IMG/VR virus record: IMGVR_UViG_3300017934_000023
Location: 1 to 64,000 of that record
Direction: 5' to 3' (one strand)
Length of the DNA: 64,000 nucleotides
Source: a virus
Part shown: positions 1 through 53,089 of the stretch, one piece after another
How positions within the stretch are numbered: the first letter of the stretch is position 1
Layout of the letters: each line of letters begins with the position of its first letter
The notes under the pieces: model-generated
The model's input: only the letters and a program-made list of their open reading frames with translations
Told to the model about the DNA's origin: nothing
Database searches by the model: none
Program-made: the position numbers and the translations under genes

Positions 1-96
1 AACGTAGGCAGTCTCTTCAACCGTTGCTGTATCTTGAACTAAACCGCCGCCGTTTGGGTGCTTGTGCCACCCTTGGGGAATTTCTTTTTTTGACAT
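1..96 (-). CDS. Partial protein, possible hexapeptide-repeat (beta-helix) N-terminus
   Basis: Only the first 32 codons lie in the window; the gene continues past the left edge. The start is ATG at 96 with AGGAA seven bases upstream. The visible end of the fragment (DTATVEETAYV) has the spacing of small and hydrophobic residues typical of left-handed beta-helix hexapeptide-repeat proteins, several of which occur as small phage genes. That assignment is inference from a few residues. It is the last gene of the minus-strand cluster seen here and has its own hairpin leader (111-152). Confidence 0.55.
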   Translation of the reverse strand, partial: MSKKEIPQGWHKHPNGGGLVQDTATVEETAYV

Positions 97-110
97 ATAG
101 TTCCTTTCTT

Positions 111-152
111 GGGAGTGTATCCCACATCGGGCCCTGGGTGGCCCAATATGTG
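111..152 (-). promoter_or_regulatory. Intercistronic double-hairpin leader (copy 1)
   Basis: Reading the minus strand, a stem CACAT/ATGTG extended by GGGCC/GGCCC spans 152-123. It begins seven bases after the stop codon of the upstream gene (159). It is followed directly by a small hairpin GGGA-N5-TCCC (123-111) and then the ribosome site of the next gene. The same two-part layout recurs at 527-563 and 1764-1803. There is no long T run, so this is not a textbook terminator; RNA processing or termination are both possible. Confidence 0.45.
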
Positions 153-158
153 AGACAC

Positions 159-329
159 TCAGTCTAGCGTTTTGCAGCGTTCAACGATTGGCTCGACGCG
201 GTTTGCTTGCCGCTGCCAATCCTCAAACTCGTTGATCTCTTGCTCCAATTCCTTCGCAGACTTGCCGGACGAAGGAGTAAAGAACAGATCAACGATATCT
301 TTGGCTGTGACTTGCCAAGGCATTCTCAT
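159..329 (-). CDS. Small protein of unknown function, 56 aa
   Basis: The protein starts MRMPWQVTAKDIVDLFF and is charged and helical towards the C-terminus. The start at 329 is chosen because GGAGG lies eight bases upstream; a longer frame reading upstream to 437 overlaps two other small genes and has no better signal. The ATG overlaps the stop of the 18-codon frame at 326-382 (ATGA), so translation may be coupled. No family recognised. Confidence 0.65.
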   Translation of the reverse strand: MRMPWQVTAKDIVDLFFTPSSGKSAKELEQEINEFEDWQRQANRVEPIVERCKTLD

Positions 330-382
330 GCTTGTGCCTCCTTCAATGGTTCCGGCCTTACCTTTTTGTCCTGTTGTTCCAT
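326..382 (-). CDS. Possible 18-aa minigene
   Basis: A short frame (MEQQDKKVRPEPLKEAQA) starts at 382, overlapping the previous stop as TAATG and ending in ATGA with the next gene. AAAGGAAA lies just upstream. The clean overlaps at both ends suggest a coupled micro-gene, but it could simply be spacer carrying the GGAGG site of the following gene. Confidence 0.35.
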   Translation of the reverse strand: MEQQDKKVRPEPLKEAQA

Positions 383-513
383 TAGTTTCCTTTCTTCGCG
401 GCTGCTTTAGCGGCTTTCCGCGCTTCGCGCCGCTCAACTTGCCGGATTTGATGATCTAACTTTGTCCGGGTGATAGTGAGAGGCTCACCATTTTGACGGA
501 ATGACTTAATCAT
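382..513 (-). CDS. Small basic protein, 43 aa
   Basis: Starts at 513 after AGGAGC in the leader. The protein (MIKSFRQNGEPLTITRTKLD...) ends in an Ala/Lys/Arg-rich helix (ARKAAKAAAKKGN), so it could bind nucleic acid; this is only a composition argument. It is first in a three-gene unit (513 down to 159) separated from the previous unit by the hairpin at 542-563. Confidence 0.6.
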   Translation of the reverse strand: MIKSFRQNGEPLTITRTKLDHQIRQVERREARKAAKAAAKKGN

Positions 514-526
514 GGTTGCTCCTATT

Positions 527-563
527 GGGAATGAATCCCGGCGAGCCTACCATAGCAGGCTCG
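527..563 (-). promoter_or_regulatory. Intercistronic double-hairpin leader (copy 2)
   Basis: A perfect seven-base stem CGAGCCT/AGGCTCG (542-548 with 557-563) starts seven bases after the stop of the 570-716 gene. Two bases later on the minus strand comes GGGA-N5-TCCC (539-527), then the AGGAGC ribosome site of the gene starting at 513. Confidence 0.5.
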
Positions 564-569
564 ACGTGT

Positions 570-716
570 TCACTCCTCGCCTTGATAATGCCCACGGCAT
601 CCGGCATCTTCATAAACTACACGATCTGCAATAACCCGGCGAAGATGCATGATGTAGGCCACATCCAGATATACCACAGCGAACAGCAGGATGTAAAGCA
701 AGGTTTTCCTTTTCAT
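570..716 (-). CDS. Small single-pass membrane protein, 48 aa
   Basis: Starts MKRKTLLYILLFAVVYLDVA: a positively charged N-terminus followed by one hydrophobic segment of about 18 residues, then a charged, Cys-containing tail. This predicts an N-in membrane anchor or signal anchor. Start at 716 has AAAGGAAAA upstream and overlaps the stop of the preceding small gene (ATGA). Function unknown. Confidence 0.6.
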   Translation of the reverse strand: MKRKTLLYILLFAVVYLDVAYIMHLRRVIADRVVYEDAGCRGHYQGEE

Positions 717-808
717 AGTTTTCCTTTGTGCTGCCTGTGCAGCTTGATGATTAACTCCGTGAGAGAAAGAGACATAAGGCAAAGCAGACCGAACAGAATC
801 CAATACAT
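713..808 (-). CDS. Small hydrophobic peptide, 31 aa
   Basis: A single hydrophobic segment (MYWILFGLLCLMSLSLTELI) followed by a basic tail. AGGAG lies nine bases before the ATG at 808; the start overlaps the stop of the zinc-ribbon gene (TAATG) and its own stop overlaps the next ATG. Looks like one of a series of coupled membrane micro-proteins. Confidence 0.5.
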   Translation of the reverse strand: MYWILFGLLCLMSLSLTELIIKLHRQHKGKL

Positions 809-918
809 TAAAGGGCTCTCCTTGTTTTACCGCACCGTAGACAGCGCCACCAGTTACTAAATGCATGTTCAAACTTGCGTTGCTTCTCACAATAGGGACA
901 GGTTAGCCAGCGGATCAT
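808..918 (-). CDS. Tiny zinc-ribbon protein, 36 aa
   Basis: Carries two CxxC knuckles (CPYC at residues 7-10 and CLRC about 16 residues later), enough for one structural zinc. Start at 918 has GGGAG seven bases upstream and an ATGA overlap with the previous gene. Tiny zinc ribbons of this kind are common phage accessory proteins that bind nucleic acid or protein; the target is not visible. Confidence 0.55.
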   Translation of the reverse strand: MIRWLTCPYCEKQRKFEHAFSNWWRCLRCGKTRRAL

Positions 919-1061
919 GACTTCTCTCCCTTCACGATTCGATCAAATCTAGCGCGACTCGGAGGCCACGCAAGAATCCTGACGCAGGCCCAGAATACAC
1001 CCTTGATTTTGGTTTGGCTCATTAGCTGCCAAACCATTTTAAGCATGATCCAGGTTGGCAT
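915..1061 (-). CDS. Small protein of unknown function, 48 aa
   Basis: Begins MPTWIMLKMVWQLM and is rich in aromatic and basic residues. The start at 1061 has only a weak TAGG upstream; in-frame ATGs at 1046 and 1022 are possible alternatives but have no better site. The stop overlaps the start of the zinc-ribbon gene (ATGA). No recognised family. Confidence 0.45.
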   Translation of the reverse strand: MPTWIMLKMVWQLMSQTKIKGVFWACVRILAWPPSRARFDRIVKGEKS

Positions 1062-1066
1062 AGAGC

Positions 1067-1201
1067 CTACTTTCTAAAGATGTGTGGCGCTACTGGTGCG
1101 CTTGTGCCTTCAGTGTGTGGACGATTCTCCAGCCAAGTGCAAAAAGAATCTGCAACGGCCCAAAGGCAGAGTGAGAGAATGATACCGATGATAATTAGCA
1201 T
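1067..1201 (-). CDS. Small membrane or exported protein, 44 aa
   Basis: A hydrophobic N-terminus (MLIIIGIILSLCLWAVADS) could be a signal anchor or signal peptide, followed by a polar tail. GGGAG lies six bases before the ATG at 1201. A nine-base-pair hairpin (1216-1246) sits between this gene and the upstream stop at 1253, matching the leader layout of its neighbours. Confidence 0.55.
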   Translation of the reverse strand: MLIIIGIILSLCLWAVADSFCTWLENRPHTEGTSAPVAPHIFRK

Positions 1202-1215
1202 GAGAGTCTCCCGTG

Positions 1216-1246
1216 AAAGGCCACCGCGGGGACGCTAGTGGCCCTT
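1216..1246 (-). promoter_or_regulatory. Intercistronic hairpin (copy 4 of the series)
   Basis: Stem AAGGGCCAC/GTGGCCTTT (one G-T pair) begins six bases after the stop of the 1253-1414 gene and precedes the GGGAG ribosome site of the next gene. It resembles the other minus-strand leaders in position, but the small GGGA-N5-TCCC hairpin is not clear here. Confidence 0.35.
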
Positions 1247-1252
1247 CCCGCG

Positions 1253-1414
1253 CTACTCTTGCTCCGCGAATGTACGATCTATTCCATCCCGATACTTGCG
1301 CCTAATATTGCCGGCCCACCCTTGTTCGTCGAATGGTTCTGGGTCATTCACATACACCCGCCCTAGCTTATTCGCCTCAGGCGGGAACAGAATTGCAAGC
1401 AGCTTTTCAAGCAT
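1253..1414 (-). CDS. Small protein of unknown function, 53 aa
   Basis: Starts MLEKLLAILFPPEANKLGRV: a short amphipathic or hydrophobic N-terminus, then a charged globular-looking remainder (DEQGWAGNIRRKYRDGIDRT). GAGGTG is placed well before ATG 1414. Unknown function; part of the minus-strand small-gene cluster. Confidence 0.55.
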   Translation of the reverse strand: MLEKLLAILFPPEANKLGRVYVNDPEPFDEQGWAGNIRRKYRDGIDRTFAEQE

Positions 1415-1422
1415 GATTCACC

Positions 1423-1584
1423 TCACGTAAAGATGATTGGGTCCTTGGATGGTGAAGGCTTAACATTGGGCAACGCCATAATCATGTCTTGCTTTGTGTT
1501 AGGACAAGGCATGTAATTATAGCCAGGGAAGAACTCAAAATGTGGGTCAGATGCAAGAACTATGAAAATTACGAGCCTGAGCAT
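1423..1584 (-). CDS. Small possibly exported protein, 53 aa
   Basis: N-terminus MLRLVIFIVLASDP is signal-peptide-like but short. The remainder is Pro-rich with two Cys-Pro or Pro-Cys contexts. It starts inside the end of the preceding gene (16-base overlap); the ribosome site is weak. Real but poorly supported; function unknown. Confidence 0.4.
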   Translation of the reverse strand: MLRLVIFIVLASDPHFEFFPGYNYMPCPNTKQDMIMALPNVKPSPSKDPIIFT

Positions 1585-1751
1585 GTTGGTTCCACTTCTA
1601 CCGGGGTGGAAATGTCATTGACAAACTCAGGCAGGTCCCGCGTATTTTCGGGGTGATAGCTGTCAACGCGGAATGAGCCGTGCTCATCAACGATATACGT
1701 CCGGTCGCTAGTCTTGACTGTCTCGCCGGGTTTCGCAAGCATATCTTTCAT
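1569..1751 (-). CDS. Small protein of unknown function, 60 aa
   Basis: Starts MKDMLAKPGETVKTSDRTYI; the GETV...TYIVDEHGSFRV pattern suggests a small beta-rich fold. Start at 1751 follows GGAGTG; an upstream in-frame ATG at 1787 would run through the hairpin leader and is rejected. First gene after the double-hairpin leader at 1764-1803. Confidence 0.6.
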   Translation of the reverse strand: MKDMLAKPGETVKTSDRTYIVDEHGSFRVDSYHPENTRDLPEFVNDISTPVEVEPTCSGS

Positions 1752-1763
1752 GTTCACTCCATT

Positions 1764-1803
1764 GGGAAAGTATCCCGCAGCGCCCACCGCAAAGATGGGC
1801 GCT
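1764..1803 (-). promoter_or_regulatory. Intercistronic double-hairpin leader (copy 3)
   Basis: A perfect eight-base stem AGCGCCCA/TGGGCGCT (1779-1786 with 1796-1803) starts 11 bases after the stop of the 1815-2096 gene. It is followed two bases later by GGGA-N5-TCCC (1776-1764) and the ribosome site. Same organisation as at 111-152 and 527-563, with different stem sequence, so the structure rather than the sequence is conserved. Confidence 0.5.
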
Positions 1804-1814
1804 ATGTGATACTT

Positions 1815-2096
1815 CTAATACTCGTCGTCACTCCACAATCCCCAGTCGCCATTTTCATTTCGGCCCCAAAGGTATCCCATGACCGGGTGAACTTCATTCA
1901 TGTAATCCGTTGCATCATCTTCAATTTCGCTTGCCCATTCGTAGTCTGCAAGAGACTCAGGCTGAGGGCAAGATGGGTCATCGTCATTTACGTCAAAGCC
2001 ATAATCTTCGCAAAATTCAACTATGGCATCAATCGCATAGATGCCGCGTGCAGAATCCACGTAGCATCCAGGCTCAAAATAACCGCGTTTAGTCAT
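1815..2096 (-). CDS. Acidic protein of unknown function, 93 aa
   Basis: Starts MTKRGYFEPGCYVDSARGIY and is strongly acidic (runs of Asp and Glu), with several Trp and Tyr. Acidic small early phage proteins often act as DNA mimics or bind host proteins, but nothing here proves that. Start at 2096 follows AGGAGG; the longer frame to 2192 reads through a large stem-loop and is rejected. Confidence 0.65.
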   Translation of the reverse strand: MTKRGYFEPGCYVDSARGIYAIDAIVEFCEDYGFDVNDDDPSCPQPESLADYEWASEIEDDATDYMNEVHPVMGYLWGRNENGDWGLWSDDEY

Positions 2097-2116
2097 GGGT
2101 ATCCTCCTGAGCGTTA

Positions 2117-2183
2117 GAGTCAGGGGGCACCGAGAGCCAAACAAACATATTTGAGGCGCAGGGTGCCCCGGTAGGCCTGACTC
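2117..2183 (-). promoter_or_regulatory. Large stem-loop in leader of the 1815-2096 gene
   Basis: GAGTCAGG+GGGCACC (2117-2131) pairs with GGTGCCC (2162-2168) and CCTGACTC (2176-2183) with a seven-base bulge, giving a 15-pair stem. It ends about 20 bases before the ATG at 2096, and the AGGAGG site stays outside. It lies next to the conserved-loop hairpin at 2186-2212, so the whole leader is structured. Confidence 0.5.
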
Positions 2184-2185
2184 GG

Positions 2186-2212
2186 CAAGCACTCCGGTTA
2201 GTGAAGCGCTTG
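2186..2212 (-). promoter_or_regulatory. Conserved-loop hairpin element, copy 1
   Basis: On the minus strand the stem CAAGC/GCTTG encloses TTCACTAACCGGAG (2205-2192). The same 14-base loop is repeated exactly at 2832-2819 inside another stem. Outer flanks GCCTG/CAGGC could extend the stem. Two copies with the same loop but different outer stems suggest a functional RNA or protein-binding element. Confidence 0.5.
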
Positions 2213-2300
2213 ATGTGGCAGGCTATGTTGGTGGGGTGCTGGCAGACAAACTTATCCTCACGCGCGCGTTACCTTAATTTCTTCCGCGGGCGCGTAACTA

Positions 2301-2420
2301 TCACCGCGCCATTAATGCGGCGTGCAGGATAATCTTGGCAATAATGTTCTTGACCACTTCGCTGTCAGTCTGTCTCAACGCCTTGAGGTAGACGTCGTGC
2401 AGAGCTAGATGTACAGACAT
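2301..2420 (-). CDS. Small protein of unknown function, 39 aa
   Basis: MSVHLALHDVYLKALRQTDS... is a short, helical-looking, mildly hydrophobic protein. GGGGAG lies six bases before the ATG at 2420. It follows the hairpin at 2463-2480 and is part of the minus-strand cluster. No family recognised. Confidence 0.5.
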   Translation of the reverse strand: MSVHLALHDVYLKALRQTDSEVVKNIIAKIILHAALMAR

Positions 2421-2462
2421 GGTTCTCCCCTGTCTCAAGCTTAACGAGCAAGCTTGCCCAGT

Positions 2463-2480
2463 AGGGCTCTTGCGAGCCCT
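2463..2480 (-). terminator. Hairpin with GCAA tetraloop after the 2492 stop
   Basis: AGGGCTC/GAGCCCT with loop GCAA on the minus strand, a GNRA-type tetraloop, starting 11 bases after the stop codon of the 2492-2767 gene. It could be a weak or factor-dependent terminator or an RNA processing/stability element; no T tract follows. Confidence 0.45.
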
Positions 2481-2491
2481 CTAGGGAAAGA

Positions 2492-2767
2492 TTACTCTTC
2501 TTTCTTGGCAAGCTTCGAATCGTTCGCCTTGAGGAACGCTTCAAGCTTTCCGCTCTTGACCAACGAGATAACCTTGGCCCAACCGCTGGCGTACAGCGTA
2601 ACTGGATACCGACCCGTTCCGTAAAACGAGACAGCACCCTTCACCGAAACCCTCAGACCATCGGTCGTTGGGTTGTTCGCTTTGTGCTCAAGCTGTGCGA
2701 TGCGCGCTAACAAAGCTTCCTTGGAAGCGTTCACGTCCAGCTTAGGAGCAGTGATCGTGGTAGACAT
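2492..2767 (-). CDS. Conserved phage small protein (KGAVSFYG type), 91 aa
   Basis: The centre of the protein (VKGAVSFYGTGRYPVTLYAS followed by a Trp-containing helix) matches from memory a small protein family found in many unrelated phages, usually of about 60-70 residues and without a known function. An N-terminal helix and a Lys-rich C-terminus flank it. Start at 2767 follows AGGAGG eight bases upstream. It is the first gene of the minus-strand unit and is preceded by a leader with two competing hairpins (2790-2850), so its expression may be controlled by RNA structure. Confidence 0.75.
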   Translation of the reverse strand: MSTTITAPKLDVNASKEALLARIAQLEHKANNPTTDGLRVSVKGAVSFYGTGRYPVTLYASGWAKVISLVKSGKLEAFLKANDSKLAKKEE

Positions 2768-2789
2768 ATCGTAATCCTCCTATGGATTA

Positions 2790-2850
2790 GATGTGTTTTG
2801 ACAACACATCCCCAAGCGCTCCGGTTAGTGAACGCTTGAGGGGTGTTGTC
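2790..2850 (-). promoter_or_regulatory. Attenuator-like leader with conserved-loop hairpin, copy 2
   Basis: On the minus strand GACAACAC (2850-2843) can pair with GTGTTGTC (2807-2800), enclosing the stem AAGCG/CGCTT and loop TTCACTAACCGGAG (2832-2819). The 3' arm overlaps a second hairpin, GATGTGTT (2810-2803) with AACACATC (2797-2790). The two cannot form fully together. The second ends about ten bases before the AGGAGG of the 2767 gene. This is the layout of a switch or attenuator; ligand or protein partner unknown. Confidence 0.5.
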
Positions 2851-2854
2851 ACCC

Positions 2855-3180
2855 ACTGGCCACAGAGTAGCGACCTACTCACCCGCCGGGTTAAACCCGG
2901 CCAATAACTGTCCCTAGGATTGCCGCGGCTATACAACGCAGGCGGACGCACCGTCTCAGTCTAGTGTGCTCTTTAACACACGGAGAGTTACTGCCGTTCA
3001 GCGGCCTAATAAATAGCGACCGTCGAACGGTTCAGGTTTAGACTCACGGCGGGTTTAATCCTTGCTTCGCTACTGCCATTAGACGCGGCCAGTGAATCCG
3101 TTCGCCTGCTCTTCCGGTTTACCGCATCCGGTATTTCGTTGTGGCGAACGCAGATTCATAGTGCAAGGCAGAGACCAAAC
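2855..3180. other. Highly structured non-coding segment
   Basis: No convincing gene. Inverted repeats are dense: CCGGG-TTAAA-CCCGG (2886-2900), GTGTG/CACAC (2964-2981), GCAGGCGGACG (2938-2948) with CGTTCGCCTGC (3099-3109), and nested GAATC and GTTCGCC arms (3094-3106) with GGCGAAC and GATTC (3143-3157). Some arms compete. It could be a non-coding RNA, a replication origin, or DNA sites; the sequence alone does not decide, nor which strand is used. Confidence 0.35.
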
Positions 3181-3977
3181 CGTAAGTCCTTTAGAATCAG
3201 TAAATGAAAAATGCAGATCGAGCATAATTTACGTGGTGGGTGTGTAAAATTTTCCTTGAAATTGATTATGTGTATGAAAACAAAGGACTTCATTTGAACG
3301 TAAATTGTGCTCGATTTTGAATATTTTACTTAGCTGTGATAGCGAACAGGCAGAACATTGTCGAAATGTGGGAGATTGCGGACATATTCGCGCAGATATG
3401 CTGCAGATCATCACAAACATATGCAGGGCGAAGCAAAGTGACTGACGGTCAGGAATGACTGAACGTGGCCGTTGTCTGACACATATCGAGTGTGCGCGAT
3501 TATTTCCATGAAAATCGAAATATCCGCAAACTGTTGAAACAAAAAGACTTAGTGCAAGAAAATGCACCATAATATGCTTCTAAAAACCGGCATTTTGTGT
3601 ACTTTTTGACACACTCGAATAGTATGTAACTATATCAACGATTCGAGACACGTATTGATTAGCGTATGTTGTTGATTTTATTGTAGTTATATTGAAAGGG
3701 GACCCTAGGGGTCTAGGGGGACAGGGTCTCCCACTTCGGCGCGAGATCCACCCGGTCACCCCACTTTTTGATACAAAAAATATTTATCAGGATTTTATGC
3801 GTACTTTAATGCAAAAGGGGACCCTAGACCCCCCGGGGGGTACTTTGTGGGCCAGGGACTCCTGCCAGGATCCTATCCGGCCGGCCCTTACAAGTCTCGA
3901 GAGACACTACTACGAAAATATGCCAATATATAGGCACTAGACGCTGGGTGCCCCGAATTCTACCCTGAAAAGTTATC
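3181..3977. other. AT-rich intergenic control region
   Basis: No supported gene. It holds a 17-base inverted repeat with one mismatch (3217-3233 and 3299-3315, arms about 65 bases apart), then an AT-rich stretch. From 3695 two direct copies of AAAGGGGACCCTAG (3695-3708 and 3814-3827) occur 119 bases apart, the first forming a G-quadruplex motif and the second followed by a C6G6 palindrome (3829-3840). The region lies between oppositely oriented gene blocks and is a candidate for early promoters or a replication origin. Confidence 0.4.
3698..3726 (+). other. G-quadruplex motif
   Basis: Four G tracts (3698-3701, 3708-3711, 3716-3720, 3724-3726) separated by loops of 6, 4 and 3 bases meet the usual G3+N1-7 rule on the plus strand. 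It contains one copy of the AAAGGGGACCCTAG repeat. The alternative is an ordinary stem of GGGACCC/GGGTC type, so the folded form is uncertain. Confidence 0.4.
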
Positions 3978-4322
3978 CTAAAATTCCCACAGGTAATAAT
4001 ACACACACGGCCGGCCGATGTCACCGGTCACGAGTTTTTCTTCCCTGATCTTGTGATCTTCTATGAGGCGCCGGATCGCAATCTTGTACTCGTCCGGAAA
4101 GTTATCAGAACGCACCATGCGCGACAGAACATTTGACTTGACCTTCCCCATCGGAGCCTCGGTGATTGCCTTCACAATCCCTTCCATTAACCGGCCGATT
4201 TTCTTCTGACTCGGTAGCCGCGGAAAAACCTTCTTGCCTTCCTGGGTGTACTTCATGAGCCCCTCTCGAGCAAGATCAACTGCAACTTCTGCTATCGACT
4301 TGTACTCTGAAACTTCTTTCAT
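3978..4322 (-). CDS. Putative winged-helix DNA-binding regulator, 114 aa
   Basis: Starts MKEVSEYKSIAEVAVDLARE at 4322 with GGAGGATC upstream; a longer frame to 4352 lacks a ribosome site. The C-terminal half (VLSRMVRSDNFPDEYKIAIR, then a helix, then TGDIGRPCVYYYLWEF) reads like a winged-helix unit in which a beta wing follows a recognition helix. It is transcribed away from a stretch with three palindromes and repeated boxes (4361-4506), a typical setting for an autoregulated phage repressor or early switch. DNA binding is inferred, not shown. Confidence 0.6.
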   Translation of the reverse strand: MKEVSEYKSIAEVAVDLAREGLMKYTQEGKKVFPRLPSQKKIGRLMEGIVKAITEAPMGKVKSNVLSRMVRSDNFPDEYKIAIRRLIEDHKIREEKLVTGDIGRPCVYYYLWEF

Positions 4323-4360
4323 TTTACTGATCCTCCTCGGATCTAAAAACACAATATCAT

Positions 4361-4506
4361 CCTTTTAAAAGGAAGTCAAGAACTATTTTTCGGAACCGAA
4401 ATCAATTCACCCTTTTTCTCCAAATCAATTCAACCTGAACCCAAAATAAAGTTAGGATATATCCTAAAAAACTTTAATTCAACCTGAACAGAAATTAGGG
4501 TGAATT
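4361..4506. promoter_or_regulatory. Operator-like array upstream of the winged-helix gene
   Basis: Within 146 bases: palindrome CCTTTTAAAAGG (4361-4372), TTCGG-AA-CCGAA (4389-4400), 16-base perfect palindrome TTAGGATATATCCTAA (4452-4467), two direct copies of ATTCAACCTGAAC (4428-4440, 4477-4489), and the outer inverted pair AATTCACCC (4404-4412) and GGGTGAATT (4498-4506). The density is far above the flanks and suggests binding sites for a dimeric regulator, most simply the adjacent gene product. Confidence 0.55.
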
Positions 4507-4579
4507 AATTTCTGGAAGTCGTTTATTCATAAGAAGTTGGGAGGCATTTTGGTTGAATAGCCTTTTTAACCCCCTGTAC

Positions 4580-4602
4580 CTCTCTCTCTCTCTCTCTCTC
4601 TC
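4580..4602. repeat. CT dinucleotide microsatellite
   Basis: Eleven and a half uninterrupted CT units in the control region. Such tracts are rare in phages and prone to slippage; here it lies in a non-coding segment, so length variation could alter promoter spacing. Its function is unknown. Confidence 0.8.
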
Positions 4603-4892
4603 ACGTCACGGGTTTTGTATCTCTCACACGGTTAGAATTCATTTTTGGATCCGAAAACACCAGGAAATGAATTCTTACCAAAAAGTCGCCCTGACCAATT
4701 TTAGTACATAACCCGGGGCCCCCCGCGCCGCCGCCTGCCGCCCGCGCGCATCCCGCGCACCGGTTGCGCCACCCTTCCGCCTCGAGTACACTTCTATAAG
4801 TCTCCCGCTCACACCGGTCATACTGCCAGATCCTGTACACATGTGTCTACCAGAAGCTCCGCGCCCGCTGCGCCCCGATCGCCCTCCAAATT
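4603..4892. other. GC-rich intergenic stretch, no supported gene
   Basis: Open frames exist on both strands and start back to back at 4840/4841, but neither has a ribosome site and both have skewed, low-complexity composition (Gly/Ala or Pro/Arg). Apart from C and G runs near 4711-4750 nothing specific is seen. Confidence 0.4.
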
Positions 4893-4919
4893 ATGCCACT
4901 ACTCAAACATATAATGGAG
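4893..4919 (+). promoter_or_regulatory. 27-nt promoter-like repeat, copy 1
   Basis: First of three near-identical elements (others at 14008-14034 and 34064-34090) that begin ATGCCACYACTY and end AAACATATAATGGAG. It contains a TATAAT box fused to a GGAG ribosome-site-like end. The other copies sit six to eight bases before a start codon; here no gene starts close by and a folded GC-rich segment follows instead. Confidence 0.55.
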
Positions 4920-5285
4920 ACGCCGAAAGGCGGCTTGAGGGCCGCCCAAGACCTCCGGAAGGCCAGGAGCCAAAGACGGCCCTTTTCAGGGAACTCCCGA
5001 TCCGCGGTAATCCTGCAGGGCTCAATAAACTCAAGTGAGAGCTCTAAGGCGGCCCCAAGTTCTTTCCGGCCTAGTCGGTACCTGAGTCAGCCGTGTATGC
5101 GGCAGGAGTCGGCGCCCAACCGATGAATCAGATCTTTAGGATCTGCCAAGCCGGAGGCCGGTCCAGTTTGTTCGCCCCTGGTTTGGACGAACAGCCGCGA
5201 ATGAGTAGCGAAGCGAAAGTCCGGAAAGAGTCTAGCGATCAATTAAGGGGCCGGGTATTCGGGTGTCGGGGGCTCCACCAAATAG
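4920..5285 (+). ncRNA. Candidate structured RNA or long leader
   Basis: About 370 bases between the promoter-like repeat and the gene at 5294, with no convincing protein. Visible hairpins: CGCC-GAAA-GGCG (4921-4932), which competes with GGCGGC/GCCGCC (4929-4946); CAGATC/GATCTG (5129-5145); TGTTCG..CGAACA (5169-5193). The end contains GGGGGCTCCACCA (5266-5278), resembling a tRNA-like 3' end, but no T-arm or acceptor partner was found. Could be a phage non-coding RNA, a leader of the 5294 gene, or a decayed gene. Class not recognised. Confidence 0.35.
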
Positions 5286-5293
5286 GAGAAGTC

Positions 5294-5572
5294 ATGAGTG
5301 AGACAGCCAACAACTGTAAAGTTCCAAATATTATTCTGGGCGGATCTGGTAGCATAACTTCGTCTGGTATCAACGTAGACGGTAAGAATAATCACTGCTT
5401 CACCCTGGACGAACTTCTAAGCCCTGCGGCACTCGAGCTTCTGAACGGTCAAGGCTACGTCTGTTTTAAAATTATGGATGCTTGGGGAGATAGAGCAGGA
5501 TGGTTTTCGCGTAAAAAGAAAACGATAATCGAATCAGAAGCTGTAGTGATAGGAGCAAATTCAGGATTCTAA
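5294..5572 (+). CDS. Hypothetical protein, 92 aa
   Basis: Starts MSETANNCKVPNIILGGSGS with AGGAG seven bases upstream; a longer frame reading from 5093 crosses the structured segment and is rejected. Gly/Ser/Asn-rich N-terminus, then a compact region with DELLSPAALELLNGQGYVCF. It is the first clear plus-strand gene after the control region. Function unknown. Confidence 0.65.
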   Translation: MSETANNCKVPNIILGGSGSITSSGINVDGKNNHCFTLDELLSPAALELLNGQGYVCFKIMDAWGDRAGWFSRKKKTIIESEAVVIGANSGF

Positions 5573-5573
5573 C

Positions 5574-5846
5574 ATGAACAAAAAGAAAATCATCAAATAC
5601 GTGATCATCAGCAATTTATATAACAGAGGTTGCCGGATTGCGACCGGCACCAGTGATAGAGAAAATGATGACTCTTTCAAGCCTGGAGTTCTCTATGATG
5701 AGTGCGAAAAAGGTGCCCAACTTTTTGCTAACCTGCGGATAGCCCGACGAGCAATCGAACGCAGTATTGCATTCGCTGCCAAATATCATTCAAATCATGC
5801 CTACTGGCAAAAAGGGTGGTCGATCATTCCTGTGAGGGTAAAGTGA
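5574..5846 (+). CDS. Hypothetical protein, 90 aa
   Basis: Basic N-terminus (MNKKKIIKYVIISNLYNRGC) and a predicted helical centre (RIARRAIERSIAFAAKYHSN). Starts one base after the previous stop; AGGA lies eight bases before the ATG. The stop overlaps the next GTG start (GTGA). No family recognised. Confidence 0.6.
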   Translation: MNKKKIIKYVIISNLYNRGCRIATGTSDRENDDSFKPGVLYDECEKGAQLFANLRIARRAIERSIAFAAKYHSNHAYWQKGWSIIPVRVK

Positions 5847-5986
5847 CAGAGCAGAAGCAACAAGAAGAGTCCGTGTACCGCAACGCCTTCTCTCTGGCCC
5901 TGTGGGACGGCGCCTCAGACGAGCAGGCCCACATCAAGGCTGAAGCCGCGGTCGAGAAGCTGCGGAAGCAACAGGAGGCAGAATGA
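5843..5986 (+). CDS. Small charged helical protein, 47 aa
   Basis: GTG start at 5843 overlapping the preceding stop (GTGA) with GAGGG upstream. The product (TEQKQQEESVYRNAFSLALW...VEKLRKQQEAE) is highly charged and probably all helix. Its stop overlaps the next ATG (ATGA), so it belongs to a tightly coupled string of small genes. Confidence 0.55.
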   Translation: MTEQKQQEESVYRNAFSLALWDGASDEQAHIKAEAAVEKLRKQQEAE

Positions 5987-6396
5987 ACAAATGGTTTATA
6001 GATAGTAAAGGAAATATGTTTGAAGTGATTGAAGACGGGGGCTTCACGATTTATAAACCTTTGTTTAGTCAGCCGGGTGGATGTGTATCTTATTCTCAGG
6101 AGAACAAAATGGATTTCAGTATCAATCCCGAAGGTCCTTTCAAAGTTCATATGTTGAATGAAGCCGGCAAGATCAAGGCCCAGGTTCTTGCAGGAGCGTT
6201 TGATCAACTTCTTTCACTTGTTCTTCATAACTGCCGGCCCGATCCTTATCGCGTTCAATCAACCATACAGGATCCGGCGGCTACCGGCAATCCGGCCGTG
6301 AACACAGAAGAGTTGAAACAGTTCATCTTTAAGTTGCAGGAAGCATCCTTCTACGCCAAGCGTGCGATGGCAATGCTGCCGGAGAATCAGCAATGA
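5983..6396 (+). CDS. Hypothetical protein, 137 aa
   Basis: Starts MNKWFIDSKGNMFEVIEDGG, a beta-rich opening, then a helical C-terminus (TEELKQFIFKLQEASFYAKR). ATGA overlap with the previous gene and GGAGG just upstream. No family recognised; it lies in the accessory stretch before the modification cassette. Confidence 0.65.
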   Translation: MNKWFIDSKGNMFEVIEDGGFTIYKPLFSQPGGCVSYSQENKMDFSINPEGPFKVHMLNEAGKIKAQVLAGAFDQLLSLVLHNCRPDPYRVQSTIQDPAATGNPAVNTEELKQFIFKLQEASFYAKRAMAMLPENQQ

Positions 6397-6749
6397 ACAG
6401 GGCATATATAAGTTGTGAACTTACTGGAATGAATGCATGGCACATTTCTGATCCGACAATTCCTAAGATTCGGATGGCTGTGCAGTCACTGGCAGGAAGG
6501 AACCATAGGCCTTTCCCTGGGGGAGCAACATTCACTGAGAAACCTCGCCGCGATCACATGTTCCGCGGATACATCGATCCTGAGTCTGTGCAGCAACTGG
6601 TTGATGCCGGCGCGGCTATGTTTGAAGTGGATGAAGATGTTTTTGAGATAGGAAGTACCGGAGTAATTTTTCGAGTGACAAAGTTTGTGAAAGGTGCATT
6701 TATTTTTACCGAACGTGACCCTACCGTTCTGAAGGATCTACAACAATGA
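6393..6749 (+). CDS. Hypothetical protein, 118 aa
   Basis: Starts MNRAYISCELTGMNAWHISD; the middle (YIDPESVQQLVDAGAAMFEV) and following beta-strand pattern suggest a small alpha/beta protein. Overlaps both neighbours by four bases. The start matches the opening of some phage nucleoside-deoxyribosyltransferase-like proteins only loosely, so no function is assigned. Confidence 0.6.
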   Translation: MNRAYISCELTGMNAWHISDPTIPKIRMAVQSLAGRNHRPFPGGATFTEKPRRDHMFRGYIDPESVQQLVDAGAAMFEVDEDVFEIGSTGVIFRVTKFVKGAFIFTERDPTVLKDLQQ

Positions 6750-6943
6750 TTGTGATGTTTCAATACCGCGGTAAAGCTTATACCTTCGACTGCGTCGATG
6801 AAACACTGCTCGACATAGAACAAATCCTGGCCGATATCAACAAAGGAAAAGTCCAGGATATGGGAATGAAGCCTTCCGAAGTAACAGAGTTCCTACGTCT
6901 CCGAAAAGAAATTCCGGGCATGGGAGAAGGCACACCATCATGA
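6746..6943 (+). CDS. Hypothetical protein, 65 aa
   Basis: MIVMFQYRGKAYTFDCVDET then helices to the end. ATGA overlap with the gene before and after. Likely part of one translationally coupled unit; function unknown. Confidence 0.6.
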   Translation: MIVMFQYRGKAYTFDCVDETLLDIEQILADINKGKVQDMGMKPSEVTEFLRLRKEIPGMGEGTPS

Positions 6944-7104
6944 AGCCCTGGCAGAAGATGTTGCTGTTCACTTTGACGATGGCGATCGTAACATATGCTG
7001 TCGGATCCCTGATCCCGAATGACAGATTTATATTGACAGTTGGGATGTCTTCCTGTATAGTCTTAGTCGGCATGCGAGTGATGCGGCCAGCACAAGGAGA
7101 ATGA
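6940..7104 (+). CDS. Small two-helix membrane protein, 54 aa
   Basis: Two hydrophobic segments (about residues 8-25 and 30-45) with a short polar link and a basic C-terminus (RVMRPAQGE). ATG at 6940 overlaps the previous stop as ATGA. Holin-like in size and topology, but it is far from the lysozyme, so a lysis role is only a possibility. Confidence 0.55.
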   Translation: MKPWQKMLLFTLTMAIVTYAVGSLIPNDRFILTVGMSSCIVLVGMRVMRPAQGE

Positions 7105-7105
7105 G

Positions 7106-7309
7106 ATGGCGAAAAAGAAAAATCAAAAAACCTTTCAGGTGTGGGCCCGGGTTAATGTTTTAGCAACAGTCAATGTTCCGGCTGATACTCTGGAGCAAGC
7201 TGTTGAAGTGTCTAAGACTTTGACATCTGATGATTTTTTGTATGAAGGCCGATATGACGGGACTGTCGAAGACACAGAACTAAACATCACAGGGGTTATG
7301 GAGAACTAG
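7106..7309 (+). CDS. Hypothetical protein, 67 aa
   Basis: Basic start (MAKKKNQKTFQVWARVNVLA) and a beta-alpha-beta pattern with an acidic C-terminus. Ribosome site AAGGAG just upstream. Resembles small single-domain phage proteins with an alternating strand pattern; no named family. Confidence 0.6.
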   Translation: MAKKKNQKTFQVWARVNVLATVNVPADTLEQAVEVSKTLTSDDFLYEGRYDGTVEDTELNITGVMEN

Positions 7310-7464
7310 TGCCATTCCATTGGTGTCAAGACGAAACTAATGCAACGATCGCCGCGTTCTCCCTCATCTTGGGGTTTTGGCGAATGGTGTTGAACTACGT
7401 CTACCAAATTTTTAAAGGAGCCAGCAATGCGTTACTACGTTTGCGAATGCGGAGCAGAATTTGA
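7309..7464 (+). CDS. Small membrane protein, GTG start, 51 aa
   Basis: GTG at 7309 shares a base with the preceding TAG and has GGAG six bases upstream. The protein begins VPFHWCQDETNATIAAFSLI, one hydrophobic helix then a basic tail. Phage micro-proteins with a His/Cys-Asp-Glu opening before one membrane helix are familiar from other genomes. It overlaps the start of the next gene by 38 bases, which lowers confidence. Confidence 0.45.
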   Translation: MPFHWCQDETNATIAAFSLILGFWRMVLNYVYQIFKGASNALLRLRMRSRI

Positions 7465-7651
7465 CGACGATCAGCAAGGCGCCCGGGAGCATATGCTAGA
7501 CGAGCACCTGGACTTGATTGAAACACGATTCGAAGACCTCATCAACGAAGGTGTTTTTGAGGAAGAGAATTTCACGGAAGAGGAATACTATGACGAAGCC
7601 ATCGAGGAAGTTACCGAAGAGCTTCTCGATCTGACTGGTGACGAGGACTAA
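7427..7651 (+). CDS. Acidic zinc-finger-like protein, 74 aa
   Basis: Starts MRYYVCECGAEFDDDQQGAR. CxC at residues 6-8 followed by H-x4-H (HMLDEH) gives a C2H2-like zinc site; the rest is a very acidic helix. Start at 7427 follows AAAGGAG. Such a small acidic zinc protein could mimic DNA or bind host factors, but that is conjecture. Confidence 0.6.
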   Translation: MRYYVCECGAEFDDDQQGAREHMLDEHLDLIETRFEDLINEGVFEEENFTEEEYYDEAIEEVTEELLDLTGDED

Positions 7652-7653
7652 TT

Positions 7654-8025
7654 GTGATAAACAAAATACTCGTTGGGACATATCAATTAGGTCTCAGAAA
7701 TATAAAGGTTTTTGCTGACCCCAATACTGCCAGCGGCTCTGTCATCATGATGCCAGAAAACAAAGGTGTTGCTGAGGTTAATGTTGGCATAGCTAAAAGT
7801 TGGGCAGAAACTGTATCAACATTTCTTCATGAGGCTTTTGAGTTGTCATTCATAGATTTAAATGGTCGGTACAGCCAGTCTCCAGGCTTTTGTCAAGAAG
7901 CTTCCGACTTCATTTTCTTAGTGACTCACAATCAGTTTTCAGATGCCGGCGAACGAGTATCGGAATTATTGGTAAAGGCTTTGCCGGCCTTAGAAAAGAT
8001 TTATAAAAAGAATCAGAAAAAGTGA
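7654..8025 (+). CDS. Hypothetical protein with HExxE-like motif, 123 aa
   Basis: GTG start at 7654, three bases after the previous stop, with GAGGA upstream. The centre contains FLHEAFELSFIDLNGRY, a helix with His-Glu and a second Glu, seen in several uncharacterised phage proteins that look like shortened metalloproteins. No third metal ligand can be assigned, so enzymatic activity is not claimed. Confidence 0.55.
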   Translation: MINKILVGTYQLGLRNIKVFADPNTASGSVIMMPENKGVAEVNVGIAKSWAETVSTFLHEAFELSFIDLNGRYSQSPGFCQEASDFIFLVTHNQFSDAGERVSELLVKALPALEKIYKKNQKK

Positions 8026-14039: not shown

Positions 14040-14744
14040 ATGACCTTACAACAGCTTGAAAGTGGTGTCAATATTTGGGCATCTTTTGTGAAAGCCCACG
14101 AGAAACTAGTCCTTATTTTGGCCCTTGTCGGCTTAGGTTTTTATGGCTACAACCGGGGGGTGAACGCTTGGGAAGCTTATGATAAGCGTCACGTCGCCCT
14201 GGACCAGCAGAAGATCGATCAGGCACACCAGGAGAACGCTGCTCTAGCACAGCAGCTTGCGGCCCTTAAGTTTACCGTGGACACGAATGCCCGGATAGCC
14301 GATGCAAAGATTTCGGCCGCCCATGAGGCTGCCAAGAAACAACAGGCTACAGACCAGCAGCTTCCGCTACCGGATCTTGCGCAGCGGTGGGCTTCGCTTC
14401 TTCCTATTACAACCCATCCAGATGATATTGTTCCTGCACCCGACAATAAATTGGTATTGACAGAATTTGTGTCTCGTGCTACAGTAGTAGAGTTAGAAAG
14501 AATTCCTGATCTCACTGAATCGGTTGTGCAGACGACAGCGGAACTCGCGGGATGCAATCAGGTTCGCGCAAAGCAAGATGAAGTACTTGCAGGCAAAGAT
14601 AAAGAATTAATTGCAGAGAAACAAGCTAGAGTAGACGACGCCAAGCTGGCGAAAGTAGCACAGCGGAAATCCTGGCTTCGTGGATTCAAAGTCGGGGCAA
14701 TCGTCGGTTTTGTAGCCGGCGCATTCCTCGGACATAGTGTTTAA
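14040..14744 (+). CDS. Membrane protein with coiled-coil core, 234 aa
   Basis: N-terminal hydrophobic helix (LVLILALVGLGFYGY), long Ala/Gln/Lys-rich coiled-coil regions (about residues 55-105 and 185-210), and a Gly-rich hydrophobic C-terminus (FKVGAIVGFVAGAFLG). Two membrane segments flanking a coiled coil could span a periplasmic space, as fusion proteins for lysis do, but no lipobox or lysis neighbour is seen. It follows the promoter-like repeat. Confidence 0.55.
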   Translation: MTLQQLESGVNIWASFVKAHEKLVLILALVGLGFYGYNRGVNAWEAYDKRHVALDQQKIDQAHQENAALAQQLAALKFTVDTNARIADAKISAAHEAAKKQQATDQQLPLPDLAQRWASLLPITTHPDDIVPAPDNKLVLTEFVSRATVVELERIPDLTESVVQTTAELAGCNQVRAKQDEVLAGKDKELIAEKQARVDDAKLAKVAQRKSWLRGFKVGAIVGFVAGAFLGHSV

Positions 14745-14760
14745 AATCTTAGGAGATTCA

Positions 14761-16380
14761 ATGTCTCATAACGTCGAAGAAGAGAAAGTTTTAATCGATC
14801 AGACAGTAGCAGTTTACGAAAAGAATGCCGGAAACATTCGCGCTACTGCGCTCGAATTAGGTATTGCAAGAAGCACTGTTAGAGATCGCATCAAGAAAGT
14901 AGGCCTAGGAAAGAAGCCCCTAGCCGGCGGAACCAAAGAAGGTACTCCGACGCAACCTGAAAAGCTTCCGCAAGCTGGAGAAGTAAAACGATATATTTTG
15001 ACTTCTGCGCAAAATAATACTCATGTTCACGCAGAATTTTTGGAAAACTTGGAAACCTTGGCAAAATATTATAATGCCGAAATCATCGTAGGAACCTATA
15101 CCTACAATCAGAATCACTATGGCAAGTTGAGTGTGAAGCGCGGTAAAGATAAGCAGGAAGAGAAGCAGTTGTGGTACGATCCGGCTATCATAAAGTACAT
15201 CAAAGACTACCGCATTGAATTAGGTAAGGGGCTGGTATGGGCGGGTGAATATAACGCGCTGCCGACGAATGTTAACCCCCTGGCCGGGTTGGAATCATAC
15301 ACCGGACGCAAGAGCGCGATCTTCCCTCATGCGAAGCTGGCTATGCGCAGTATCGCAACTATGCAGGGCGAGGGAGTGAAGCTGAATTATACCACGGGCA
15401 CCGTGACACAGCGTAATTACATCCAGAAGCGCGAGGGCGTGATCGCAGAGTTCCACCACATCTACGGCGCGCTACTGGTTGAAGTTAACTCGGATGGTCA
15501 TTGGTGGGTCCGTCAACTGAATCAGGATGAGGGCACCGGGACGTTGCAAGATTTGAATGTGTTGGTGAAGGGTGGAAAAATCATCAGCAAAACGGAGCGC
15601 GTGGAAGCTATCACCTACGGTGATCTGCACGGCACCTTTGCGGACCCAGGTATCGTGGCAACATCACAAAACATGCTTGACATTCTGCGTCCCAAGTATC
15701 AGTTCCTGCACGATGTAATGGAAGGCGTGTCGATCAATCCGCATGACCGCAAATATAAGAATAACCATGCAAAGTTCCACACATGGTTGCGTGGCTACGG
15801 ACGCTTGGATGCCGAATTAAGAGATACGGCAGCGCTCTTGAAGACTTTCACCCGTGATTTCTCGAAGACTGTGATCGTCGATTCGAATCACGATGATGCG
15901 TGGTTGCATCGTTGGCTGCAAGAATACGACTATCGCGTGGATCCAGCGAATGCGGAATTATTCTTGAAGCTACAAACATATGTCTACGAGCAGATTCGCA
16001 GAGGTAAGATGCCGCGCGACATCAGTGTGATTGAGTATGCGTTGACCGGCGCGGGCTATACAGATCCGGCAAGATTTTTGCTGGCAGACGAATCGTATTT
16101 GATCTGCAATCGCAAGATCGAATGTGGTATGCACGGTCACTTAGGCCCAGGTGGGCGCCGCGGTTCACCGGACAATCTTTCGAAGATGGCGAGGAAGGCC
16201 AATACCGCACACACCCATGCCACCGGGATTTACAACGGACTCTACGTGGCAGGCACCAGCAGCAAGCTGCGTTGGGACTACAACCTCGGGCCCAGTAATT
16301 GGACGAACAGCCATATTGTGACCTATCCGAATGGCAAGCGTTCTATCATAACGATTTACGCTGATAAGTGGAGAGCATAA
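14761..16380 (+). CDS. HTH plus metallophosphoesterase protein, 539 aa
   Basis: Start at 14761 (MSHNVEEEKV) follows AGGAG. Residues about 20-50 (NIRATALELGIARSTVRDRI) form a helix-turn-helix. The C-terminal half carries calcineurin-like metallophosphoesterase motifs: GDLHG (Asp288, His290), SNHDD (Asn376, His377), GMHGHLG (His458, His460) and AHTHATG (His484, His486). A DNA-binding head on a phosphoesterase suggests cleavage or dephosphorylation at nucleic acid. From memory, phage T5 A1 and relatives, which act in host DNA degradation, have a comparable make-up; that link is inference. Confidence 0.7.
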   Translation: MSHNVEEEKVLIDQTVAVYEKNAGNIRATALELGIARSTVRDRIKKVGLGKKPLAGGTKEGTPTQPEKLPQAGEVKRYILTSAQNNTHVHAEFLENLETLAKYYNAEIIVGTYTYNQNHYGKLSVKRGKDKQEEKQLWYDPAIIKYIKDYRIELGKGLVWAGEYNALPTNVNPLAGLESYTGRKSAIFPHAKLAMRSIATMQGEGVKLNYTTGTVTQRNYIQKREGVIAEFHHIYGALLVEVNSDGHWWVRQLNQDEGTGTLQDLNVLVKGGKIISKTERVEAITYGDLHGTFADPGIVATSQNMLDILRPKYQFLHDVMEGVSINPHDRKYKNNHAKFHTWLRGYGRLDAELRDTAALLKTFTRDFSKTVIVDSNHDDAWLHRWLQEYDYRVDPANAELFLKLQTYVYEQIRRGKMPRDISVIEYALTGAGYTDPARFLLADESYLICNRKIECGMHGHLGPGGRRGSPDNLSKMARKANTAHTHATGIYNGLYVAGTSSKLRWDYNLGPSNWTNSHIVTYPNGKRSIITIYADKWRA

Positions 16381-43873: not shown

Positions 43874-43930
43874 ACGGAAATTTCTTCTTGACTTCCGTAA
43901 GCCGACGGAGTATAATTTCGGTAAGGATGA

Positions 43931-43955
43931 TGGGGCGCGCCTAGAACGCGCCCCA
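43931..43955 (+). terminator. Strong hairpin after the capsid gene
   Basis: TGGGGCGCG-CCTAGAA-CGCGCCCCA, nine perfect pairs, 57 bases after the capsid stop; followed by ATATCCGACTCTTTC, only a partial T tract. Likely a terminator or attenuator that limits transcription into the HNH gene and fibre genes. Confidence 0.65.
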
Positions 43956-43981
43956 ATATCCGACTCTTTCTAGGAGAGATT

Positions 43982-44542
43982 ATGAGCGGTACAAAAATGT
44001 TGAAGGATATAAAAGGGCAACGTTTCGGACGATTAGTTGTTCTTTGTTTGGCGCCGGAATATGATAAGTCAGAAGGCGCATATTGGACTTGTAAATGTGA
44101 TTGTGGAGAAGAAAGAAAAGTAAAAGGATATTTTCTGCGTTCGGGAAAAACGAAAAGTTGTGGATGTTTTCAGCGGGATAATGCTAGTGAAATTCATGGC
44201 GGCTATTCCGGTCAAGCTGCTGAGACACAGTGTTTCAACACCTATCGTCATAATGCAAGAACGCGTAAGATTCCATTCGAATTATTGAAAGAAGAATTTT
44301 TGAAGTTGACCAAACAGAATTGTTTTTATTGTGGATGTGAGCCAGCACAAGTGGTTGTGGTTCCTAGTGAAAATGGAACCTATGTTTATAATGGCGTGGA
44401 TCGTATTGACAGCTTGAAAGGATATACGATTGACAATTGTGTAGCCTGTTGTGGAACCCATAATCTTATGAAGTTAGATATGACCACCGAAGAATTCGTG
44501 GCTGCCTGCCGTTCCGTAGTAGATCATTTCTCGAAGAAGTAA
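43982..44542 (+). CDS. HNH homing endonuclease, 186 aa
   Basis: Zinc N-domain as in 28668 and 51366: IKGQRFGRLVVL, CKCDCG and SCGCFQR. C-terminal nuclease with NCFYCGCEPAQ, NGVDRIDSLKGYTIDNCVAC (His replaced by Cys-rich finger) and CGTHNLMKLDM. AT-rich codons unlike the capsid gene. Inserted between two strong hairpins after the capsid gene. Confidence 0.8.
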   Translation: MSGTKMLKDIKGQRFGRLVVLCLAPEYDKSEGAYWTCKCDCGEERKVKGYFLRSGKTKSCGCFQRDNASEIHGGYSGQAAETQCFNTYRHNARTRKIPFELLKEEFLKLTKQNCFYCGCEPAQVVVVPSENGTYVYNGVDRIDSLKGYTIDNCVACCGTHNLMKLDMTTEEFVAACRSVVDHFSKK

Positions 44543-51275: not shown

Positions 51276-51315
51276 GTTGATTTAAACTTTCGGCTTGATC
51301 ACCGGAAGTTACGAT

Positions 51316-51342
51316 CTAGGGAGGACCTGTAATCCTCCCTAG
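51316..51342 (+). terminator. Hairpin before HNH gene
   Basis: CTAGGGAGGA-CCTGTAA-TCCTCCCTAG, ten perfect pairs, 24 bases before the ATG of the HNH gene at 51366. TCACTCTTTACAGG follows; weak T tract. Functions either as terminator or to limit expression of the endonuclease. Confidence 0.55.
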
Positions 51343-51365
51343 GTCACTCTTTACAGGAGAGGAAA

Positions 51366-53022: not shown

Positions 53023-53030
53023 AGTACTAT

Positions 53031-53080
53031 CAAATAAATGGTACTTCACAAAGAATAAAAATTGTGCTATCATTTATTTG
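53031..53080 (+). repeat. Inverted repeat before HNH gene
   Basis: CAAATAAATG (53031-53040) and CATTTATTTG (53071-53080), ten perfect pairs around a 30-base loop. The GGAG of the HNH gene follows at once, so the structure could cover it. Confidence 0.55.
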
Positions 53081-53089
53081 GAGATCACT

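Follow-up and report, generated by a model that had tools for sequence, protein, structure and literature searches.

We describe a family of hairpins that fill the spacers between small leftward genes in a phage genome, and we are highly confident that the family is a real element acting at the level of RNA. The window analysed here runs from base 1 to base 64,000 of an IMG/VR virus record of 69,279 bases. Together with a second type of leader, found before endonuclease-like genes on the other strand, the family leads us to propose, as a tentative view with somewhat less than even chances, that this lineage uses two or more undescribed leader RNAs: a hairpin with two states, reused as a module before unrelated genes and set by the ribosome that finishes the preceding gene, and a two-hairpin leader on endonuclease genes of many phages, with 7-nt loops that would kiss over the Shine-Dalgarno sequence. 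Operons of tiny unknown genes abound in phages, and little is known of how the output of each gene is controlled. A module with compensated pairs that turns up between unrelated genes offers a handle on this question: alter the stem and read the next gene.

Relatives of the phage, 27 IMG/VR loci, were found through its conserved DNA transfer protein (14737-16380; PHROG match, E 2e-163), to which theirs are 41-74% identical. One related record, G005, likewise has small leftward genes in an array, and several stretches there match the window. Among named phages, the best-covering terminase match is that of Tunturiibacter phage Tunturi_3, where 72% of the query aligns at 31.7% identity; this phage is a podovirus of a soil acidobacterium (PMC11924767), and because of this match, we guess at an acidobacterial host for the window phage. 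A blastn search with window positions 1-8000 returned nothing in named phages.

Hairpins in the spacers of the leftward array

Each family hairpin occupies the gap from the upstream stop codon to the next ribosome site. The layout is a stem P1, a variable stem P2, the string CGGGA..(P1')..CCCAA and then, within a few nucleotides of the hairpin, the Shine-Dalgarno sequence and ATG of the next gene. P1 and P2 together form one long imperfect hairpin, in which the sequence of P2 is free and its pairs are kept. A covariance model built from seven sequences (R1) and searched against the window and the G005 stretch found 11 clear members, including four that had not been used in building it (28.9-33 bits). 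All lie on the minus strand, three in the window (101-162, 517-578 and 1754-1818) and eight in G005. The member at 517-578 (Wa), before the gene at 382-513, scores 72.5-75.3 bits and shows P1, P2 and an alternative stem P3, GGGA/UCCC; that at 1754-1818 (Wb) precedes the gene at 1569-1751 with 63-64 bits. The third (Wc, 101-162), before the gene starting at 96, scores 29.9 bits with R1 and 60 bits with a second model, R2, which it helped to build, as it did not R1. Two weak members were excluded from every pair count: one at 1192-1262 on the minus strand (Wd, before the gene at 1067-1201), with P1 and P2 only and no CCC (19.6 bits, E 0.0036; 22.5 bits, E 0.0074), and a thirteenth, G285, at L124 247-332 (E 0.33 with R2). 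An extra R1 match in G022 was rejected, as it lies inside a coding frame. Among 28 records, convincing members occur only in G000 and G005, and since the family was found in two phages only, the 11 members are not independent lineages.

The position of the hairpins relative to genes is regular. A stop codon of the upstream frame lies between -8 and +7 of the P1 start in all 13 members, the two weak ones included, counting upstream frames open for at least 54 codons; for five of the 13 a second candidate stop is in range. Directly behind each of the 13 follows an ATG gene on the same strand, although this placement helped to find most of them. The nearly identical leaders Wa and G4002 precede unrelated genes, and blastp among the 13 downstream genes revealed one related pair only. 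The hairpins lack the U-run of an intrinsic terminator, being followed by CCCAA (CCCCC in one member) and a ribosome site. Integron-like attachment sites were also considered and dropped, as the conserved ends of the family do not show their pattern.

Searches beyond these two phages gave little. The pattern CGGGAYNCWYTCCCAA-N-AGGAG matched one IMG/VR locus, which is G005, and GGGAYNCWYTCCCAA-N-AGGAG matched 79 genome loci, with 20 R1 matches at E ≤1 and a best value of 0.0074. Because the search pattern itself supplies the R1 score, we took these 79 loci, including two acidobacterial contigs inspected by eye, as chance matches. The family was not found in Tunturi_3, the nearest named phage by terminase.

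The pairing of P1 and P2 is supported by compensatory changes. Across the 11 members (three from the window, eight from G005), in an alignment that had been fitted to the P1+P2 structure, 89.3% of 206 cells are paired and 15 of 19 pairs show changes on both sides; none of 500 shuffles reached the covariation score, and sliding the structure lowered pairing to 35-48%. A seven-row MAFFT alignment gave comparable values (89.5% paired, 12 of 19 pairs changed on both sides, 0 of 500 shuffles). G-U pairs are frequent (23 of 184 paired cells) and antisense matches are much weaker (20.5 versus 64.6 bits at one site), which together argue for RNA of the minus strand and not a DNA cruciform. In a systematic scan with a simple gene caller, minus-strand spacers were not more structured overall than plus-strand spacers; as the caller missed several small genes, we do not count spacer statistics as support.

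A second pairing, P3, is formed by GGGX and X'CCC. GGG and CCC are invariant in all 11 members, and X pairs with X' in every one of them (eight A-U, three C-G; 4 of 500 shuffles were as good), the change being carried by three sequences of one phage, G005, and perhaps dating back to a single event or two. Both letters are part of P1 as well. In constrained folding, blocking the first 8 or 12 nucleotides produced P2+P3 in Wa and Wb, and Wc required 12. The Shine-Dalgarno sequence is unpaired in both the P1+P2 and the P2+P3 state and is not freed by P3.

Upstream of the array, the block at 3663-3744 is 82% identical to G005 inside an otherwise diverged intergenic region; it may hold an operator or promoter that serves the leftward array. 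Here, AAAGGGGACCCTAG is repeated at 3695 and 3814 and is partly palindromic (GGGGACCCTAG).

Possible roles and known parallels

The reading that we favour, tentatively and with its probability still short of even, is that the family couples the start of translation on a gene to termination on the gene preceding it. The spacers of the array would act as RNA leaders with two states, one in which P1 and P2 form a single long imperfect hairpin and another in which the 5' strand of P1 is masked and P2 stands beside the small hairpin P3. The mask would be a ribosome terminating on the upstream gene. We propose this because the stop codon sits at the base of P1, blocking the 5' strand of P1 folds P3, and X pairs with X' in all members. 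Transcription as drawn, the occurrence of the switch and the direction of the change in translation are what we infer. As in coupling elements, the upstream stop lies close to the downstream start and the RNA between them is structured. In a review of translational coupling (PMC12548453), unfolding of RNA by the upstream ribosome is a described model, structure right behind the stop codon can reduce coupling, and the atpHA switch appears among the references. There, too, structure between the stop and the next ribosome site is disturbed by the terminating ribosome; the cases considered from that review are individual gene pairs, whereas the window element recurs among unrelated genes and, unlike them, offers a second conserved pairing.

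Processing hairpins cut by a double-strand ribonuclease occur between T7 early genes, and the spacer hairpins could likewise be RNase III-type sites that yield single-gene messages with structured ends. We consider this rather unlikely, although P1+P2 has a suitable form: 19 modelled pairs over a nearly constant length of about 22 positions, with regular one-by-one mismatches in the clear members, close to the 20 bp or so of double-stranded RNA expected and about two helical turns, free in sequence and found only between genes. Processing leaves the invariant GGG/CCC and the X-X' pairing unexplained, as well as the closeness to the Shine-Dalgarno sequence. Alternatively, a phage or host protein that recognises GGGX...CCCAA might repress or activate translation of the entire array from these sites. 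CGGGA and the CCCAA on the 3' side of P2 are indeed strongly conserved while P2 is free, and start-associated repeats of cluster K phages are discussed as regulator sites (PMC3203893); however, a candidate protein is lacking and P3 also accounts for the conserved letters, and we regard such a site as unlikely.

Those cluster K repeats, the SAS and ESAS of mycobacteriophages, are the closest layout among known systems (PMC3203893). They resemble the window family in having many copies per phage, mostly in one orientation and before start codons of non-structural genes, in an outer GGG...CCC with an inverted repeat just upstream in the extended form, and in leaders common to unrelated genes. In the window family, the one-orientation placement before starts holds for 13 of 13 members. 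The SAS, in contrast, is a fixed 13-mer that contains the Shine-Dalgarno sequence, which in the window family lies outside an element of other sequence, and the same paper reports little support for RNA hairpins, its inverted repeats being generally unsupportive of RNA pairing, whereas the stems of the window family covary. The SAS 13-mer GGGATAGGAGCCC has no match in the window with up to two mismatches. Rfam 15 gave no match at gathering score over the whole window, only E 2.2 and E 4.6 in 2000-4400 and none to E 1 in 1-2300; in L124 6500-10300 the best match was a microRNA family far below its cut-off (E 0.02). We found no phage-wide covarying intercistronic element in the literature, where subscription journals were thinly covered, so that this counts as weak evidence.

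Two array leaders that share a 14-mer

An earlier reading of the sequence alone had drawn attention to a 14-base loop common to two leaders of the array. Exact matching and folding place TTCACTAACCGGAG on the minus strand at 2192-2205 and 2819-2832, 627 nt apart and each in a hairpin, as that reading said; with up to two mismatches allowed there is no third site in the window. Same-strand exact repeats of at least 14 nt number 22 in the 64-kb window, against a mean of 7.3 in 30 shuffles, and those spaced less than 700 nt are rare (0.1 per shuffle). What is unusual about the pair is thus its spacing below 700 nt on one strand, a 14-nt repeat somewhere in 64 kb being expected. The similarity continues into the inner stem (CAAGCG-TTCACTAACCGGAG-CGCTTG versus CAAGCGCTTCACTAACCGGAGTGCTTG), and since UUC pairs with GAG or GGA, the folded loop is only 7-8 nt (ACUAACC or ACUAACCG), shorter than the 14-mer. 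The description of one loop in different stems therefore stands for the outer stems alone, as the two copies have a nearly identical inner stem in common with the loop. Neither R1 nor R2 matches these hairpins (2175-2223 and 2800-2850), and they do not fit the stop-codon geometry of the spacer family, copy 1 lying in a gap some 200 nt long while copy 2 leads the first gene of the array. They are longer individual leaders of array genes and probably also act in cis on initiation.

Copy 1 (2175-2223, minus strand) has an outer stem GCCUG/CAGGC, a 6x6 internal loop CCACAU/CCGAGU and the inner hairpin with the 14-mer. Behind it lies P0002 (1815-2096, minus strand), which has one weak relative and no PHROG match; its leader as a whole is not unusual (z -1.3, 23 of 200 shuffles equally good). 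The counterpart in G005 is L124 6773-6824, reached by blastn with window positions 2175-2231 at 82%. The flanks GCCTGCCACATCA and TGCCGAGTCAGGC are identical in the two, and the inner stem retains its pairing although CAAGCGCUUC/GGAGUGCUUG is replaced by CAGGUGCAUUCC/GGAGUGUGCCUG, while the loop changes from ACUAACC to UUCGCC. This pattern reverses the notion of a conserved loop as the signature of the element, because it is the stem pairing that is kept and the loop that changes. In the window, a fold of 2094-2226 makes the outer stem and a pairing of GAGUCAGG (2183-2176) with CCUGACUC (2124-2117), which encloses GGGGCACC...GGUGCCCC, mutually exclusive; in G005, GAGUC...GACUC is present in the sequence and absent from the MFE fold. 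As far as these two sequences tell, the copy-1 element is both structured and conserved. In IMG/VR, GCCTGCCACATCA-N-GAGTCAGGC matched two loci, G005 and IMGVR_UViG_3300009509_000046, the latter having been seen before the pattern was picked; though exact on 22 bases, it lies inside an opposite-strand coding frame and was set aside as coincidence.

Copy 2 belongs to the leader of P0001, a 91-aa gene (2492-2767, minus strand). Its hairpin 1 (2800-2850, minus strand) is closed by GACAACAC (2850-2843) and GUGUUGUC (2807-2800) and holds the 14-mer in its inner stem; with flanks it folds at -44.2 kcal/mol (z -6.8), which none of 200 shuffles equalled. A competing hairpin, GAUGUGUU-GUCAA-AACACAUC (2790-2810, minus strand), has one arm in common with it. 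In constrained folding, GAUGUGUU (2803-2810) pairs with AACACAUC (2790-2797) once hairpin 1 is blocked over its first 9 nt (-32.6 versus -40.3 kcal/mol unblocked), in agreement with the two competing hairpins that had been proposed for this leader. A small hairpin, UAAUCC-AUAGGA-GGAUUA (2772-2789, minus strand), overlaps part of the Shine-Dalgarno sequence AGGAGGA (2775-2781). P0001 has no PHROG match; a homologue was found in one of 22 related records searched, G005 (44% identity), and a pattern search of IMG/VR gave none. The leader of its G005 counterpart, also a first gene, is of unrelated sequence, with its last two hairpins non-competing in the MFE fold, and no such hairpin pair was seen in two distant carriers of the C-terminal part of P0001. 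Ahead of this first gene, about 480 nt (2768-3250, minus strand) hold no clear gene and have short stretches such as CGGCGGGTGA in common with G005; this may be a longer structured leader. The view that both elements are minus-strand leaders is supported by their places ahead of genes in an array that the window has in common with G005, and exclusive pairings recur in this array.

That hairpin 1 contains a transcription terminator or attenuator at 2810-2841 is highly improbable: a consensus scan flagged the site, but it flagged nine such sites in 2 kb, the tail ATGTGTTGTC has no T-run, and the hairpin stands directly ahead of a gene with its own ribosome site. We also think it very unlikely that the 14-base loop serves both leaders as a functional element for binding or kissing, as first read. 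Its exact recurrence after 627 nt, in a second hairpin of the one array, would suit that role; against it, the corresponding G005 site carries another loop, and the sole minus-strand 7-mer complement of the loop in the first 4.4 kb is CCGGTTA at 4188-4194. The bare 14-mer occurs at no fewer than 80 IMG/VR loci, and CAAGCGNTTCACTAACCGGAG has no match there. In 84 occurrences inspected (80 IMG/VR loci and the window's own two sites, counted twice via overlapping loci), it lies in a long hairpin, with at least six flanking pairs, only at the window's sites among the matches listed. The 22 relatives hold 12 near-matches, against three for a reversed control pattern, and none lies in such a hairpin. 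Covariation is seen in the copy-1 stem of G005, and no further copy of the hairpin was found in these searches; the stem-loop that the two leaders share looks like a recent local copy event inside this genome.

Complementary-loop leaders of endonuclease-like genes

Folding of spacers revealed a different leader at 43927-43985 on the plus strand, behind the major head gene, with two hairpins whose loops are complementary: loop 1, CCUAGAA, exactly complements loop 2, UUCUAGG, which bears the start of the Shine-Dalgarno sequence AGGAG. A model match at 51313-51368 (plus strand) has complementary 7-nt loops as well, and further examples (L268-L293, L248, L252, L255, L256, L258, L264 and L267) came from model matches and IMG/VR loci. 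A scan of 965,837 bases for a hairpin with loop L followed by one with loop rc(L) gave seven matches, against one and five in controls; all seven, whose positions were read, lie directly before an ATG gene. Covariance model R3, built from 14 sequences with nested stems only and thus not requiring loop-loop pairing, gave 26 matches at E 0.01, spread over 11 of 29 records.

We examined 34 rows, including seven further IMG/VR loci; as two rows each duplicate another, 32 are distinct. The loops are perfect complements in 31 of the 34, for three of them over six aligned loop letters. The three imperfect rows comprise one that is truncated, one with a 24-aa frame only and one with six of seven pairs. 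Among rows outside R3 training, 15 of 18 loop pairs are perfect, which none of 2000 permutations equalled. With the pseudoknot included, 98.6% of 578 cells are paired, compared with 46-65% in slid versions, and five of the seven loop-loop pairs show changes on both sides. From 20 IMG/VR loci found by pattern, 11 were discarded for absence of stems, mostly also without an open gene behind, and nine were kept. Another nine of these 20 matches (L250, L251, L254, L257 and L259-L263) have a similar leader with CCTAGAA and TTCTAGG, no stable stems and a frame of only 5-11 codons behind; they show a different, unexplained conserved stretch.

The genes behind the two-hairpin leaders are, by their sequences, nearly all HNH or GIY-YIG endonuclease-like. 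PHROG assigned HNH endonuclease or endonuclease VII to three of three products (43982, 51366 and the one in G005), in a scan that also took in two window products without the leader. Pfam gave Endonuclease_7, HNH or GIY-YIG for three of four scanned products and no endonuclease family for five window products; the remaining downstream genes were assigned by motif in their translations. For 19 of the 34 rows, a promoter-like site (at least 9 of 12 positions) lies upstream, where a control stretch gave 3 of 34, and ten of these sites read TTGACA-17-TARGAT, 4-7 nt ahead of the modelled start. Separately, AAACATATAATGGAG occurs three times on the plus strand of the window (4905, 14016 and 34072), with 20 nt exact between 14016 and 34072; it contains TATAAT and resembles a phage promoter present in several copies.

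T4-type homing endonuclease genes (I-TevI, segB and mobE) are known to have their ribosome site hidden in hairpins (PMC2988022). The leaders at 43927 and 51313 are similar to these in having structure over the Shine-Dalgarno sequence and a promoter nearby, and differ in that the T4-type genes have one covering structure, whereas here two hairpins bear complementary 7-nt loops. The term "kissing" does not occur in the text of that paper. Rfam gave no match to the two-hairpin leader in five loci to E 0.1, and R3 found nothing in eight named-phage endonuclease regions or, with strict filters, in 297 genomes from the phylum to which an acidobacterial contig belongs. Two of the leaders, compared as DNA, gave only short matches to named phages (E ≥0.8), so no isolated phage is shown to carry one. 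We consider an undescribed kissing-loop leader likely, and the loop-loop form of ribosome-site hiding, a function predicted from sequence, appears to be new. As a putative RNA switch it is a stronger case than the spacer hairpin family and may matter more widely. If true, a loop-loop lock on the ribosome sites of mobile endonuclease genes, with its many distinct matched loop pairs, would provide orthogonal RNA switches ready for use, and it could account for the silence of such genes after insertion. The endonuclease-like gene at 53090 has another leader (53023-53089, plus strand), with one long hairpin near or over the Shine-Dalgarno sequence.
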